A stretch of 64,000 nucleotides of DNA from Chthoniobacter flavus (lineage in GTDB: Bacteria > Verrucomicrobiota > Verrucomicrobiia > Chthoniobacterales > Chthoniobacteraceae), in NCBI GenBank assembly GCA_945861435.1, contig CAMAUX010000002.1, positions 1 through 64,000 on the forward strand, read 5' to 3'. The translations under genes and the position numbers were made by a program. Below are positions 11,688 to 16,681 of the stretch, piece by piece. The notes under the pieces are model-generated. The model ran no database searches. It saw only the letters and a program-made list of their open reading frames with translations, and was not told where the DNA came from. Every line of letters starts with the position of its first letter. Positions within the stretch are counted from its first letter, which is position 1.

Positions 11688-12659
11688 TTAGAGGATGAGC
11701 ATGCAGTCGCCGTAGCTGTAGAAGCGGTACTGGGATGCGATGGCCTCGGTGTATGCGCGAAGGATGAATTCGCGTCCCGCAAAGGCGCTCACGAGCATGA
11801 GCAGGGTGGACTTGGGAAGATGGAAGTTGGTGAGCAGGAGGTCGACGGACCTGAACTGGTAGGGGGGGTGGAGAAAGATGTCGGTGGAGCCGCTGCGGGC
11901 TTGCAGAGGGCGGCCGCAGCTCTCGAGCACACGGGCGCTGGTGGTGCCGATGGCGAGGATGCGCTGGGCGGCGTTGACGGCCGCCGCGGTTTCTTCGGGG
12001 ACCACGAAGCGTTCGGCGTGCATCGTATGCTGGCTGAGGCTTTCGGCCTGAACGGGGCGGAAGGTGCCGGCACCCACATGGAGGGTGAGGAAGGCGTGCG
12101 GGATGCGCGCGAGGATATCCGGTGTGAAGTGGAGGCCTGCGGTTGGCGCGGCGACTGCGCCGGGGTGTTGCGCGTAGACGGTTTGGTAGCGTTCTTCGTC
12201 CGCCTTTTCGACTGCGCGCCCGAAGTAGGGGGGGAGGGGAAGTTGGCCGATGGATTGGAGGTCGACGGGGCGGTCGAAGCTGATGATGCGTTCGCCCTCC
12301 GGGCAGAGTTCGCGCACGGTGCCGGTGGTGCCCTGAAGGTGGACCTGGTGTCCGGGGCGCATGCGGCGTCCGGGTTTGACCATGCATTTCCAAGTGTTTT
12401 CGGCGACGGCCTCGAGGAAGAGGAGTTCGATGCGCTGGTCGTCGGAGAAGGCGCGAGCAGGGATGACGCGGGTGTTGTTGAGGACGGCGAGGTCCCCGGG
12501 GGAGAGGAGCGAGGGGAGGTCGGAGAAGTGGCGGTGCTCGAGGGTTTGCGAGGCACGGTGGAGCACCAGCATGCGGGACTGGTCGCGGTGGGGTGCGGGA
12601 TGGCGTGCGATGAGCGCGTCGGGCAGGGGATAGTCGTAGTCGCTGGTGAGCAGGCTCAT
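11688..12659 (-). CDS. queA: S-adenosylmethionine:tRNA ribosyltransferase-isomerase QueA
   Basis: QueA adds the cyclopentene ring precursor in queuosine synthesis at tRNA position 34. The 323-aa product has the family hallmarks: DYDYPLPDALIARHP, the DLAVLNNTRVIPAR segment, GAVAAPTAGLHFT, TLHVGAGTFRPV, IAIGTTSARVLES and LLTNFHLPKSTLLMLVSAFAG. It is slightly short for the family (about 340-350) without loss of a visible motif. ATG 12659 is the natural start. It ends 9 bases from the tadA stop on the other strand. Confidence 0.95.
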   Translation of the reverse strand: MSLLTSDYDYPLPDALIARHPAPHRDQSRMLVLHRASQTLEHRHFSDLPSLLSPGDLAVLNNTRVIPARAFSDDQRIELLFLEAVAENTWKCMVKPGRRMRPGHQVHLQGTTGTVRELCPEGERIISFDRPVDLQSIGQLPLPPYFGRAVEKADEERYQTVYAQHPGAVAAPTAGLHFTPDILARIPHAFLTLHVGAGTFRPVQAESLSQHTMHAERFVVPEETAAAVNAAQRILAIGTTSARVLESCGRPLQARSGSTDIFLHPPYQFRSVDLLLTNFHLPKSTLLMLVSAFAGREFILRAYTEAIASQYRFYSYGDCMLIL

Positions 12660-12754: not shown

Positions 12755-15343
12755 TTAGGTGGCGGCCTTGGGGCGGCTGCGTTCGCCTGAGACGCGCTGG
12801 AGTTGGCAGCGGTTGGCGGCGGCGGTGACGAGGTCGGCGACGCGGCGCTTGAGCCGTCGGGCGCGCAGGTAGAGCACGAAGACAAAGAATAAGTAAGCAG
12901 CCCACCAAGCATAGTTCTGGTGGCGGGTGAAGGCCTCGCGGTAGAGGAGTGCGGAGAGGATGATGAAGTTGGAGAGGAAGGTGGTGACGACCATCTTGTA
13001 TCCAAGGTGAACGCGGGTGAGGCACTTGGGGCCGCCGTGGTATTCGGTGACGGTGGCGAGTTTGATGATCCACCAGAAATTGCCGTAGATCTGGACGTCC
13101 CAGCGCTTCCAGCCGGTGTCGGCGGAGTAGCGCCAGCCTTCGGTTTCGAGTAGGGCGAAGATTTCGGTGAGCAGTTGTTCGCGGCCCTGTCCGGTTTCGT
13201 TCCAGAAATCGAGGCGCGCGATGCCGCCACCGCGGGTGACGCCTTGTTCTGGGGCAGCGATGACGGCGGATGGGGTGCGCTTGTATTTGAGCCAAGTGAA
13301 GTAGCGCGCCCAGCCTCGGCCTAAGGGTTGCATGAGGGCGAGGAAGCCGACGAGGAGGCGGGCGCCAATGGTGTCGAACTTGGGCTCGATGCGGGCGCCG
13401 ACCATGTGGCTGATGGCGACGAGGAACGTGCCACCGAACATGAGCAGCGGAACGATACGGAGGTTTGGGAAGGCGACTGTGACGACGAAGATGAAGGCGG
13501 TGAGGGCCACCCATTCGATGCTGCCGAGGTATGCGGCGATGGCGCTCTGTGGCACTGGGTAGATGGACTGGAAGAGGCCTTGGCCGAAGACGCCGTGGTA
13601 GATGATGGGCTCGTTGAAAAGCCAGCGGAAGCGGGGCCCTCCGTAGATCTGGCCCTTCCACTTGGCCTGACCGGTGGGGCCGAAGAAGATGAGGTGCTTG
13701 AAGCGGAGCATGGCCTCAGCTTCGCCGTAGCCTTCCTGCTGCTTGCGGAAGGCGTCGAGGGTGAAGCGGCGGTAGTGCCAGACGATGGCGCTTGGGCTGA
13801 AGGCGATGACGCCGCCCTGCGTCTGGAGGCGCCAGCAGAAGTCCACGTCGTCGCCGGCTTTGCGGTATTCGACATCGAAGCCGATGACGCTTTCGAATGC
13901 CCAGCGGTGGAAGGCCATGTTGCAGCCGGGGATGTGTTCGGCGACGACATCGGTGAGGAGTACGTGGCTGGGGCCGCCCGGTGCTGCGGAGACGGCGGCT
14001 TGGATCCAGTTGACTGCGGGGGGTGAGATGTTCGGGCCGCCGACGCCGGCGAAGTCGCCGCTCAGGAGGGTGCCGACAAGGTAGTAGAGCCAGTCCGGAT
14101 CCGGCATGCAGTCGGAGTCGGTGTAGGCGAAGATGTCGCCCTTGGCGGCCTTGGCGCCTGCGTTGCGGGCGTCGCTGAGGCCCATGTTGGGCTGGATGAT
14201 GTTTTGGAAGCTGGGGAGGTTGGCGCGGCCGGTTTGTGAGCGGCGCTGCAACCAGTCCGAGACGATTTGCTGGCTGTGATCCTTGGAGCCGTCGTCGACG
14301 AGGACGATTTCGAAGTCTGGGTAGGTGACTTTGTCGAGTGCGATGAGGCAGTCGCCGAGTGTCTTGCCGCCATTGTAGCTGCAGACGATGACGGAGACCT
14401 TCGGGTAGGAGCGGAGTTGGATTCGCTCGGTGATGGAGGCTGTTCCGGAGAGCTTTTCGCGGAGTCGGTGGAAGGCGAGCTTCGGCTTGCGGTCGCGGGT
14501 GACGAGGCCGAATTCCCAGTCGGTGATTTCGTGGCCACCGGTGAACCATTCATCGGTCCAAGAGAAGAAGATGGTGCCCGCGGCGCCGCCCTTGACGACG
14601 GTGTCGAGGTGCCAGTCGAGGACATCGGCCTGCATCTGTTCGCCCTTGCGGAGCGTGTCGAGGCCGAATTCGCCAAGGATGAGGGGTTTGTCCTCTGCGA
14701 GGTTTTGAAGACGTGCGATGTAGCGTTCGAAATCCGGCTGGCGCTCGAGGTAGACGTTGAAGGAGTAGAAGTCGACGTTGTGCGGCAGGAGGTATTCGGT
14801 GGGCGGATAACTGGCGTAGCTGTAGAGGGGGCGGGGATCAGTTTCGCGGGCGACGCTGATGAGTTTCTCTAGGAACTCGACGACGCGTGTGGCGCCGAGC
14901 CAGCGGACCATGGTCGTGGGGACTTCGTTGCCGACGAGGTAGGCGAAGATGGCTGGGTGGCCCTTGTGCCGTGCGACGGCATCGCGGACGGTCTGGATGA
15001 TCTGGCGGCGCAGCTTGCGGCTGTTGAGGAATTCGACGTGCTGGGTCCAGGGGATGGAGATGAGGACGCGGATGGCGAACTCGGCGGCCATGTCGAGCAG
15101 CCATGCGGGCGGGACGTGGTAGACGCGGATGAGATTTACCCCGAGCTCCTGCATGAGAGCGAAGTCGATGCGCGCCTGCTCCGGGGTGGCGGTGAGATCG
15201 CCGTCCGCATTGGGTTTGAAGGGGCCGTAGGTGACGCCCTTGAGAAACCACTTGCGGTCACCTTCAAAGAAGAACTTCGCCTGAATCTGGATGGGTTCCA
15301 GGGCTGTGGCGCTCGGGGCGCTTGGCAAAGGGGTGGCTGACAT
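12755..15343 (-). CDS. Fusion: glycoside hydrolase-like TIM barrel + GT2 glycosyltransferase + membrane domain
   Basis: An 862-aa protein with three parts. Residues 20-295 resemble clan-A glycoside hydrolases (GH2/GH5-like), with both expected glutamates: Glu140 in LVGNEVP (acid/base) and Glu225 in ILGEFGLD (nucleophile). Residues 313-570 are a GT2 domain (VSVIVCSYNGG, LVDDGS with Asp350-351, YTDSDC with Asp409-Asp411, GCNMAFHR, AGDDVDFCWRL). Residues 640-845 hold several membrane helices. GT2 proteins of this build make or export polysaccharide at the inner membrane; the barrel could edit or release the polymer. The substrate cannot be told. No partner polysaccharide operon surrounds it. Confidence 0.85.
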   Translation of the reverse strand: MSATPLPSAPSATALEPIQIQAKFFFEGDRKWFLKGVTYGPFKPNADGDLTATPEQARIDFALMQELGVNLIRVYHVPPAWLLDMAAEFAIRVLISIPWTQHVEFLNSRKLRRQIIQTVRDAVARHKGHPAIFAYLVGNEVPTTMVRWLGATRVVEFLEKLISVARETDPRPLYSYASYPPTEYLLPHNVDFYSFNVYLERQPDFERYIARLQNLAEDKPLILGEFGLDTLRKGEQMQADVLDWHLDTVVKGGAAGTIFFSWTDEWFTGGHEITDWEFGLVTRDRKPKLAFHRLREKLSGTASITERIQLRSYPKVSVIVCSYNGGKTLGDCLIALDKVTYPDFEIVLVDDGSKDHSQQIVSDWLQRRSQTGRANLPSFQNIIQPNMGLSDARNAGAKAAKGDIFAYTDSDCMPDPDWLYYLVGTLLSGDFAGVGGPNISPPAVNWIQAAVSAAPGGPSHVLLTDVVAEHIPGCNMAFHRWAFESVIGFDVEYRKAGDDVDFCWRLQTQGGVIAFSPSAIVWHYRRFTLDAFRKQQEGYGEAEAMLRFKHLIFFGPTGQAKWKGQIYGGPRFRWLFNEPIIYHGVFGQGLFQSIYPVPQSAIAAYLGSIEWVALTAFIFVVTVAFPNLRIVPLLMFGGTFLVAISHMVGARIEPKFDTIGARLLVGFLALMQPLGRGWARYFTWLKYKRTPSAVIAAPEQGVTRGGGIARLDFWNETGQGREQLLTEIFALLETEGWRYSADTGWKRWDVQIYGNFWWIIKLATVTEYHGGPKCLTRVHLGYKMVVTTFLSNFIILSALLYREAFTRHQNYAWWAAYLFFVFVLYLRARRLKRRVADLVTAAANRCQLQRVSGERSRPKAAT

Positions 15344-15400: not shown

Positions 15401-16681
15401 TCAGGAGAGGAGCGCTTTGGTCGCGACTTCCGCCGTGCGTGCGAAGTCTGCTTCGGTATGGGCAAGGCACAGGAATCCGGCCTCAAATTGCGAGGGGGCG
15501 AAGTAGACGCCGTTTTCTCTGCAGACGTGGAAAAATCGGGCGAAGGCGGCCTTGTCGCTGCGCTGCGCGTCGGCGAGGTTCCAGACGGGCTGGTTGGTGA
15601 AGTAGAGGCAGAACATGGAGCCGATGCGCTGGAAGGTGTAATCGCGGCCGCTGCGGCGGAGTGCGTAGCGGACGCCTTCCTCGAATTCGGCGCCGAGTTG
15701 TTCGAGCTTGTTCCAGCCGTCGAGTCGCTGGAGTTCGCGCAACTGTGCGAGGCCCGCGCTGAGGGCGAGAGGGTTTCCGGAAAGCGTGCCGGCTTGATAA
15801 ACGGGGCCTTCCGGCGAGAGCAGGTCCATGATTTCAGCGCGGCCGCCAAACGCTCCGACTGGAAGCCCACCGCCGATGACCTTGCCGAGTGCGGTGAGGT
15901 CCGGGGTGATTCCGCAGAGTTGCTGGTAGCCGCCCCGGGCGAGGCGGAAGCCGGTCATCACCTCGTCGAAGATGAGCAGCGCACCGTTCTCGATGCAGAG
16001 TTTTTGGAGGAGTTCAAGGAAGCCGGGTCTGGGAAGGTAGAGGCCGGCGTTGGCCGGGACGGGTTCGAGGATGACGGCGGCAATCTCGCGTCCGTGCTGT
16101 GAGAAGGTGGCTTGGAGTGCCTTGGGATCGTTGAAGGGAAGGGTGAGGGTGAGGGCCGCGAGTGCGGCGGGGACGCCGGCGCTGTCGGGTTGGCCATTGG
16201 TGAGGGCGCCGCTGCCGGCCTTGACGAGGAGGGAGTCGACGTGCCCGTGGTAGCAGCCCTCGAATTTGACGAGTTTCTCGCGCTGGGTGAAGCCGCGGGC
16301 GAGACGGATGCAGGACATGGTGGCCTCGGTGCCGCTGTTCACCATGCGGACCTTTTGGACGGAGGGGACCCACTCGACGATGGTTTTGGCCATCTCCACC
16401 TCGAGGCTGTGTGGCGTGCCGAAGCTGACCCCGCGGGTGGCGGCGGATGCGATGGCTTGGGTGACTGCCTCCGGGGCGTGGCCAAGGATGGCGGGGCCCC
16501 AGGTTCCGACGTAGTCGATGTATTCGCGGTCGTCTGCGTCCCAGAGCCGCGCACCCTTTGCGCGGGAAACGAAGAAGGGGTCGCCGCCGACGCCGCGGAA
16601 TGCGCGTACCGGTGAGTTGACGCCTCCCGGGATGTAGAGGCGTGCTTGAGCGAGGAGTGCTTCGGAGGCTGGCTGCGTCAT
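15401..16681 (-). CDS. hemL: Glutamate-1-semialdehyde 2,1-aminomutase
   Basis: HemL makes 5-aminolevulinate from glutamate-1-semialdehyde in the C5 tetrapyrrole route. The 426-aa product has GGVNSPVRAF (19-28), MVNSGTEATMSCIRLAR, the PLP aspartate in LLIFDEVMTGFR and the Schiff-base Lys267 in TALGKVIGGGLPVG. ATG 16681 fits the family N-terminus; an open extension upstream would run into the tRNA gene and is rejected. Heme from this route would supply the many cytochromes encoded at 36-55 kb. Confidence 0.95.
   Translation of the reverse strand: MTQPASEALLAQARLYIPGGVNSPVRAFRGVGGDPFFVSRAKGARLWDADDREYIDYVGTWGPAILGHAPEAVTQAIASAATRGVSFGTPHSLEVEMAKTIVEWVPSVQKVRMVNSGTEATMSCIRLARGFTQREKLVKFEGCYHGHVDSLLVKAGSGALTNGQPDSAGVPAALAALTLTLPFNDPKALQATFSQHGREIAAVILEPVPANAGLYLPRPGFLELLQKLCIENGALLIFDEVMTGFRLARGGYQQLCGITPDLTALGKVIGGGLPVGAFGGRAEIMDLLSPEGPVYQAGTLSGNPLALSAGLAQLRELQRLDGWNKLEQLGAEFEEGVRYALRRSGRDYTFQRIGSMFCLYFTNQPVWNLADAQRSDKAAFARFFHVCRENGVYFAPSQFEAGFLCLAHTEADFARTAEVATKALLS

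Follow-up and report, generated by a model that had tools for sequence, protein, structure and literature searches.

A conserved fusion of a GH157-like hydrolase barrel and a GT2 glycosyltransferase, linked to an ABC exporter, in the Verrucomicrobiota

Introduction

Why would a bacterium place a domain that builds a sugar chain and a domain that cuts one in the same polypeptide? The question is raised by a gene at positions 12755-15343 of a 64,000-nucleotide stretch of DNA from Chthoniobacter flavus, referred to here as the window. An earlier note, made from the sequence, had read its product as a glycoside hydrolase barrel fused to a processive-type GT2 synthase with membrane helices. It had proposed that making and cutting in one protein serve length control or release of a polysaccharide, and had remarked that the gene stands apart from any polysaccharide operon. 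We examined the protein domain by domain, and then its relatives and their gene neighbourhoods.

Results

The coordinates were correct, and the gene lies on the minus strand. A single 862-aa open reading frame starts with an ATG at 15343 and its stop ends at 12755; the plus strand across 12755-15343 is interrupted by stops. The source genome holds a single copy. The open reading frame, Pfam matches, alignments and an AlphaFold model (46 sequences, mean pLDDT 81) divide the product into a GH157-like barrel, a GT2 domain and, behind them, two hydrophobic hairpins together with a small C-terminal domain.

The N-terminal part (residues ~14-300; 14444..15304, minus strand) is a clan-A (beta/alpha)8 barrel of GH157/GH2-like type, as indicated by Pfam, profile and structure matches. 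Two Pfam models scored over their curated cut-offs, Glyco_hydro_2_C at residues 56-297 (E 6.7e-9) and Glyco_hydro_72 at residues 12-142 (E 5.4e-9). A profile built from 26 diverse barrels matched the GH157 enzyme LaGH157 at E 3.3e-26 (positions 10-268 of 300), followed by the best GH2 protein at E 5.6e-13. The modelled barrel superposed on the solved structure of LaGH157 (9g4n) with a Z score of 30.4 and an rmsd of 2.9 over 299 residues. In the same structure search GH2 glucuronidases trailed LaGH157 by about one Z unit, and the fold alone therefore cannot choose between GH157 and GH2. GH2 enzymes carry beta-sandwich domains ahead of the barrel. Here the barrel begins at about residue 14 with no such domain before it, and of GH2 models hmmscan to E 1 returned GH2_C only. 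Judged by sequence, the barrel is nearer to the GH157 endo-beta-1,3-glucanases than to GH2. We rejected a plain GH2 or GH5 barrel because, although GH2_C matches, GH157 is far closer by profile; the domain check suggested for residues 1-300 upheld a hydrolase barrel, with GH157 rather than plain GH2/GH5 as the nearest family.

The two glutamates previously singled out as catalytic, Glu140 in a GNE motif (codon 14924..14926, minus strand) and Glu225 in GEFG (codon 14669..14671, minus strand), are the predicted acid/base and nucleophile, respectively. Both align with residues changed from Glu to Asp in 5c71 compared with 5c70, entries of an A. oryzae glucuronidase. Glu140 also aligns with the Asn-Glu motif of LaGH157, and Glu225 with its E224, which is mutated in 9g4n. 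The pair is assigned by sequence alignment to catalytic residues and by superposition of the whole barrel, and both positions are Glu in 119/119 rows of the family alignment described below. Among solved structures, that of LaGH157 is the nearest to the barrel, and its catalytic Glu aligns. The window barrel differs from it in being fused and probably cytosolic, at about 20% identity. GH157 enzymes cleave linear beta-1,3-glucan (PMC10229575). The Bacteroides member BcellWH2_01931 is predicted to be a degradative enzyme of the cell surface, unlike the fused barrel of the window.

The GT2 domain follows at residues ~314-550 (13694..14404, minus strand) and is supported by Pfam, NCBIfam and the invariance of its motifs. 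Glycos_transf_2 (PF00535) matched residues 317-480 at E 7.8e-27, over the curated cut-off, and the DDG and DSD motifs reported earlier were found at residues 350-352 and 409-411, together with GDD at 497-499 and QQxGYG at 535-540. The term processive-type proved doubtful. Processive GT2 synthases of the BcsA/HAS/NodC type carry a QxxRW motif. The fusion has no QxxRW at the aligned place, where an invariant QQxGYG stands instead in 119/119 rows; beyond residue 500, 5 of 120 rows do contain a QxxRW, outside the invariant QQxGYG columns. Because the motif is missing at the aligned place, processivity is not shown by the sequence. We also modelled residues 300-862 separately (mean pLDDT 79, with residues 551-599 of the protein below 50). 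This model superposed on PcManGT (Z 23.3, rmsd 4.2, 292 residues aligned), hyaluronan synthase (Z 22.2, rmsd 4.9, 321 aligned) and BcsA (Z 21.3, rmsd 4.2, 292 aligned); homologues of one family, f15, are without the helices. The domain shares its GT2 fold with processive synthases, but not the QxxRW motif.

Among NCBIfam models the nearest was MftF (TIGR03965), at E 3.6e-40 and 138 bits against a cut-off of 280. The score is half of what membership in MftF takes, and the MftC model did not score over its cut-off in the source genome; on these two results we rejected mycofactocin glycosylation as the function. A search of plasmids gave five matching records, all to the GT2 part only and none covering 80% of the fusion, which is thus absent from the plasmids searched. 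Two of the five are annotated mftF.

Behind the GT2 domain, a hydrophobicity scan found hydrophobic segments at about residues 606-646 and 782-835, in line with the membrane helices named in the earlier note. With the models, the scan delimits a first hydrophobic hairpin at residues ~601-649 (13397..13543, minus strand) and a second at ~786-840 (12824..12988, minus strand), the latter followed by a basic tail. Between them, alignment and model place a basic helix at residues 659-687 (13283..13369, minus strand), whose R676 and R680 are invariant across 26 sequences, and then the small C-terminal domain at ~707-785 (12989..13225, minus strand), predicted to fold as b-a-b-b-b-b. This domain, about 80 conserved residues including W714, G718, R721, D749 and E767, had zero matches in PDB sequences or NCBIfam, and the fold search barely probed it, as the preceding domains fill the match lists.

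On which side of the membrane do the two active sites lie? The scan, a plain Kyte-Doolittle threshold (19-mer at least 1.5) rather than a trained topology predictor, found no hydrophobic 19-mer ahead of the GT2 domain in 117/119 rows, the exceptions being G107 and G095. In f15, 8/8 homologues (L064-L071) had no hydrophobic segment at all. These proteins stop about 150 residues early and appear to be soluble versions of the fusion. Both catalytic sets are intact in the three that entered a 26-row alignment, which also retain part of the small C-terminal domain, and in the five of the 119-row alignment. With no membrane segment between barrel and GT2 domain and with membrane-free relatives, both active sites are probably cytosolic; taken at face value, the same scan would have the barrel, the GT2 domain and the C-terminal domain all face the cytosol. 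Cutting on that side would make release of an already exported polysaccharide unlikely.

We then assessed how strongly the two domains are constrained in an alignment of 119 rows from 118 genomes of the class. In the barrel, E140, E225, D264, W266, R73, W99 and W276 were identical in 119/119 rows, as were D351, D409, D411, D498, D499, Q535, Q536, G538, Y539 and G540 in the GT2 domain. N139 was present in 118 of the rows and D350 in 114, and Y176 was replaced by Phe in 37. By this measure of sequence, both active sites are strongly constrained, and since the catalytic residues of both domains are identical throughout, neither domain looks decayed.

The fusion proved to be conserved in the greater part of a large bacterial class. 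The search for fused homologues that the earlier note had suggested returned matches at E<=1e-40 in 119 of the 188 class genomes sampled, and in a draw from the whole phylum all 27 positive genomes (out of 288) belonged to that class. Among the best 80 of 558 relatives, the nearest were Chthoniobacter and other Spartobacteria/Chthoniobacterales; the few labelled as other groups were taken as mislabelled metagenome bins.

In the window, the gene lies between hemL, 57 bp upstream (15401..16681, minus strand), and queA, 95 bp downstream (11688..12659, minus strand). The further genes identified around it, purN, rplS, tadA and phosphopentomutase, are housekeeping genes, and no glycan gene was found among these named flanking genes, which cover part of the 64 kb. 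The remark that the fusion stands apart from any polysaccharide operon is therefore accurate for the named genes of the window. It does not extend to the family, where a glycan and export cluster occurs in many relatives; we dropped the idea that there is no operon anywhere because loci of relatives place the fusion beside an exporter and a putative glycosyltransferase. In a set of 71 loci from public records and further genomes, which leaves out loci under 11 kb and may count some genomes twice, hemL lay upstream in 27 and queA downstream in 14, and a GT87-like membrane protein or an ABC exporter was found downstream in 16 and 9, respectively. The GT87 match of the former was just under the cut-off (24.8 of 25 bits), and its gene adjoined the fusion in only 2 of the 118 class genomes.

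The link with the exporter was widespread. An ABC exporter was encoded directly downstream on the same strand in 34/118 genomes, from 12/43 families (tblastn E<=1e-40, at least 350 aa, within 900 bp); 105 of the 118 had enough flank or a link, and 13, whose contigs end within 1.5 kb downstream, could not be scored. Two genomes in which an exporter cluster lies upstream on the opposite strand (G212 and G224) were left out of this count. The exporter was often accompanied by a putative glycosyltransferase, and in 4 additional genomes a gene for a 390-aa protein stood beside the fusion without the exporter. As eight sampled genomes each hold only 2-8 ABC_membrane exporters, the adjacency is far above random placement. 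The 390-aa protein is a putative glycosyltransferase with weak GT-B-type matches (Glyco_trans_1_2 in 6/11 members, best 1.2e-6; WbaZ-1 at E 8e-4). At one locus (L149, apparently the same contig as L183), the fusion, the exporter and the 390-aa protein follow in this order with overlapping frames. A second arrangement occurs at L173, L174 and L175, where a separate operon groups the exporter orthologue with the 390-aa protein and a hexapeptide acyltransferase. The source genome keeps the exporter, on another contig than the fusion, and the acyltransferase (L172), but has neither the 390-aa protein nor the GT87-like neighbour.

Several loci held further variants. Three genus mates of the source genome G000 (G001-G003) keep the 390-aa glycosyltransferase that it is without, and in G001 the GT87-like gene, missing in G000, comes immediately after the fusion. 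In L182 (G224) and L188 (G212) the fusion lies near large clusters that contain two ABC exporters, two hexapeptide acyltransferases and two 390-aa putative glycosyltransferases, as well as pairs of secreted-looking proteins that have a GSNVNLT-like or GTNVNLT-like N-terminal stretch in common. At L181:12023-14476 the 390-aa putative glycosyltransferase forms part of an 818-aa protein, which adjoins a GT2 protein and, by eye, a small methyltransferase-like protein.

Co-occurrence gave a similar picture, in counts uncorrected for phylogeny whose P-values cannot be taken as probabilities: 66/66 genomes with an exporter orthologue (E<=1e-140) and 79/79 with the 390-aa protein (E<=1e-40) also have the fusion. 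Within the order, the exporter was present in 25/25 fusion-bearing genomes, and both it and the 390-aa gene were absent from 5/5 genomes without the fusion. At the thresholds used, 36 of the 119 fusion genomes had neither partner, and in families f15 and f35 the fusion occurs with no close exporter orthologue.

Is the linked exporter simply MsbA? Three linked exporters scored 373-430 bits with the MsbA model TIGR02203, against a cut-off of 602. Unlinked exporters in G108 and G184 scored 445 and 433 bits with MsbA as their top model, likewise below 602. G108 has two ABC_membrane exporters, of which one is the linked exporter and the other the better MsbA candidate by model ranking. We rejected the identification with MsbA because in these two genomes MsbA tops the unlinked exporter and not the linked one; with all scores below the cut-off and only G108 and G184 compared, this result is suggestive.

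Discussion

These data directly support the domain make-up of the fusion, its catalytic residues and their conservation, the lack of any membrane segment separating barrel and GT2 domain, and the linkage and co-occurrence with an exporter. As far as we have searched, the family is a real, conserved and undescribed bifunctional synthase; a literature search, with most subscription journals outside it, found no published description of a GH157-GT2 fusion or its gene cluster. The linkage to an export pump in many relatives suggests that a trimmed sugar chain is made and exported by a system not yet characterised.

Taken as a whole, the best explanation is a glycan synthase at the cytosolic face whose hydrolase-like barrel processes the product before ABC export, and we put its probability at about one half. 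The fusion would be a bifunctional enzyme anchored at the cytosolic face of the inner membrane. Its MftF-like GT2 domain would extend a probably short, beta-linked chain from a nucleotide sugar, and the GH157-like barrel, also on the cytosolic side, would cleave or transfer this chain by a retaining double displacement through Glu140 and Glu225. The action of the barrel may set the length of the chain, or may close or branch it. The finished glycan would leave by the MsbA-like ABC exporter, and in many lineages the second glycosyltransferase and the hexapeptide acyltransferase would modify it. We infer activity of both domains, a common product, a cytosolic location and export. What the chain consists of can only be guessed; the resemblance of the barrel to GH157, GH72 and GH158 speaks for beta-1,3-glucan.

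Other readings explain parts of the data. One, implied by the earlier note, is a processive synthase with its own channel, whose barrel would cut the chain for release; in its favour, the GT2 domain with the helices next to it matches the structures of PcManGT, hyaluronan synthase and BcsA at Z scores of about 20-23. The substitution of QQxGYG for QxxRW throughout the family, the presence of only about four hydrophobic segments (zero in f15) and the apparent location of the barrel on the same membrane side as the GT2 domain make such a synthase quite improbable. Fused hydrolase folds can decay to non-catalytic forms, and decay of this sort might have left the barrel as a carbohydrate-binding remnant that only positions the chain. 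Against this stand the glutamate pair, R73, D264 and the three tryptophans W99, W266 and W276, invariant in every row, and we consider a remnant highly improbable.

Assembly on a lipid is harder to set aside. At the membrane, the GT2 domain would then extend a sugar bound to polyprenyl or another lipid, with the barrel as a proofreading or trimming glycosidase, the ABC protein as a PglK/MsbA-like flippase and the GT87-like neighbour using the lipid-linked sugar on the outer face. The hydrophobic hairpins behind the GT2 domain, the MsbA-like superfamily of the exporter and the GT87-like protein directly downstream in 16/71 loci would all fit. The f15 homologues, however, are membrane-free, no polyprenyl-phosphate-specific family matches, and the GT87 assignment is both marginal in score and adjacent to the fusion in few class genomes; we regard lipid-linked assembly as unlikely, though with a real chance of being right. 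It is improbable that the GT2 domain oligoglycosylates a soluble small molecule in the manner of MftF, with the barrel trimming the chain. MftF is the nearest model and two of the GT2-only plasmid matches carry its name, and the cited passages describe it as attaching up to nine beta-1,4-glucose units (PMC7491314). The score nevertheless falls far below the MftF cut-off, the radical-SAM protein MftC is not over its cut-off in the source genome, and the fusion is linked instead to exporters and other glycosyltransferases.

The simplest account has the chain made and processed on the cytosolic face and then exported by the ABC protein, as in the agrobacterial cyclic glucan synthase Cgs, where none of the transferase, cyclisation and phosphorylase domains lies outside the cytoplasm (PMC10901819). 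Cgs resembles the fusion as a single membrane-anchored chain that joins a GT2-like transferase to domains that cut or cyclise the product. A further likeness may lie in the cytoplasmic topology that the hydrophobicity scan suggests for the fusion and in the exporter adjacent to it in 34/118 genomes; in Brucella, an ABC exporter of cyclic beta-glucan, Cgt, is known (cited in PMC11842490). Cgs and the fusion differ in composition: Cgs has GT84, GH144-like and GH94 domains, whereas the fusion has a GH157-like barrel and an MftF-like GT2 domain. They also differ in size, with cited Cgs residue numbers above 2500 against 862 aa. By hmmscan the fusion has no GH94 phosphorylase or cyclisation domain, and its chain is too short for them.

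The pseudomonad GH17-GT2 protein ('Orphan'/NdvB), a proposed cyclic beta-1,3-glucan synthase, is like the fusion in its N-terminal hydrolase barrel of beta-1,3-glucan type, its GT2 domain and its membrane helices (PMC10237404). In the cited passages, a signal peptide and three membrane helices put the GH17 domain in the periplasm. The fusion has neither a GH17 match in Pfam nor a signal peptide, and nearly all rows lack a hydrophobic segment before the GT2 domain; from both Cgs and the GH17-GT2 protein it differs in hydrolase family and in architecture. MftF, for its part, is the nearest curated GT2 family and makes a short beta-glucan chain, but it has 470 aa, and the cited passages report no hydrolase domain for it (PMC7491314). 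By analogy with Cgs and the GH17-GT2 protein, making and cutting in one protein is the natural reading of the fusion, as first proposed, and release of an already exported polymer is unlikely.

A bolder and unlikely extension, which we offer tentatively, is that the Verrucomicrobiota own a cytosolic glucan factory independent of the rhizobial and pseudomonad ones. The GH157-like/GT2 chain would make a glucan of beta-1,3 type there and cyclise it or set its length. An ABC exporter of its own, an acyltransferase and a second glycosyltransferase would serve this factory, yielding a class-wide and so far undescribed periplasmic or surface glucan.

If the cytosolic synthase with ABC export is the right explanation, a widely conserved envelope glycan system would be named in an abundant and poorly understood bacterial class. 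The 862-aa fusion would provide a compact model for synthases that process their own chain, at about one third the size of Cgs, and the membrane-free f15 homologues would open it to direct testing as a soluble enzyme.
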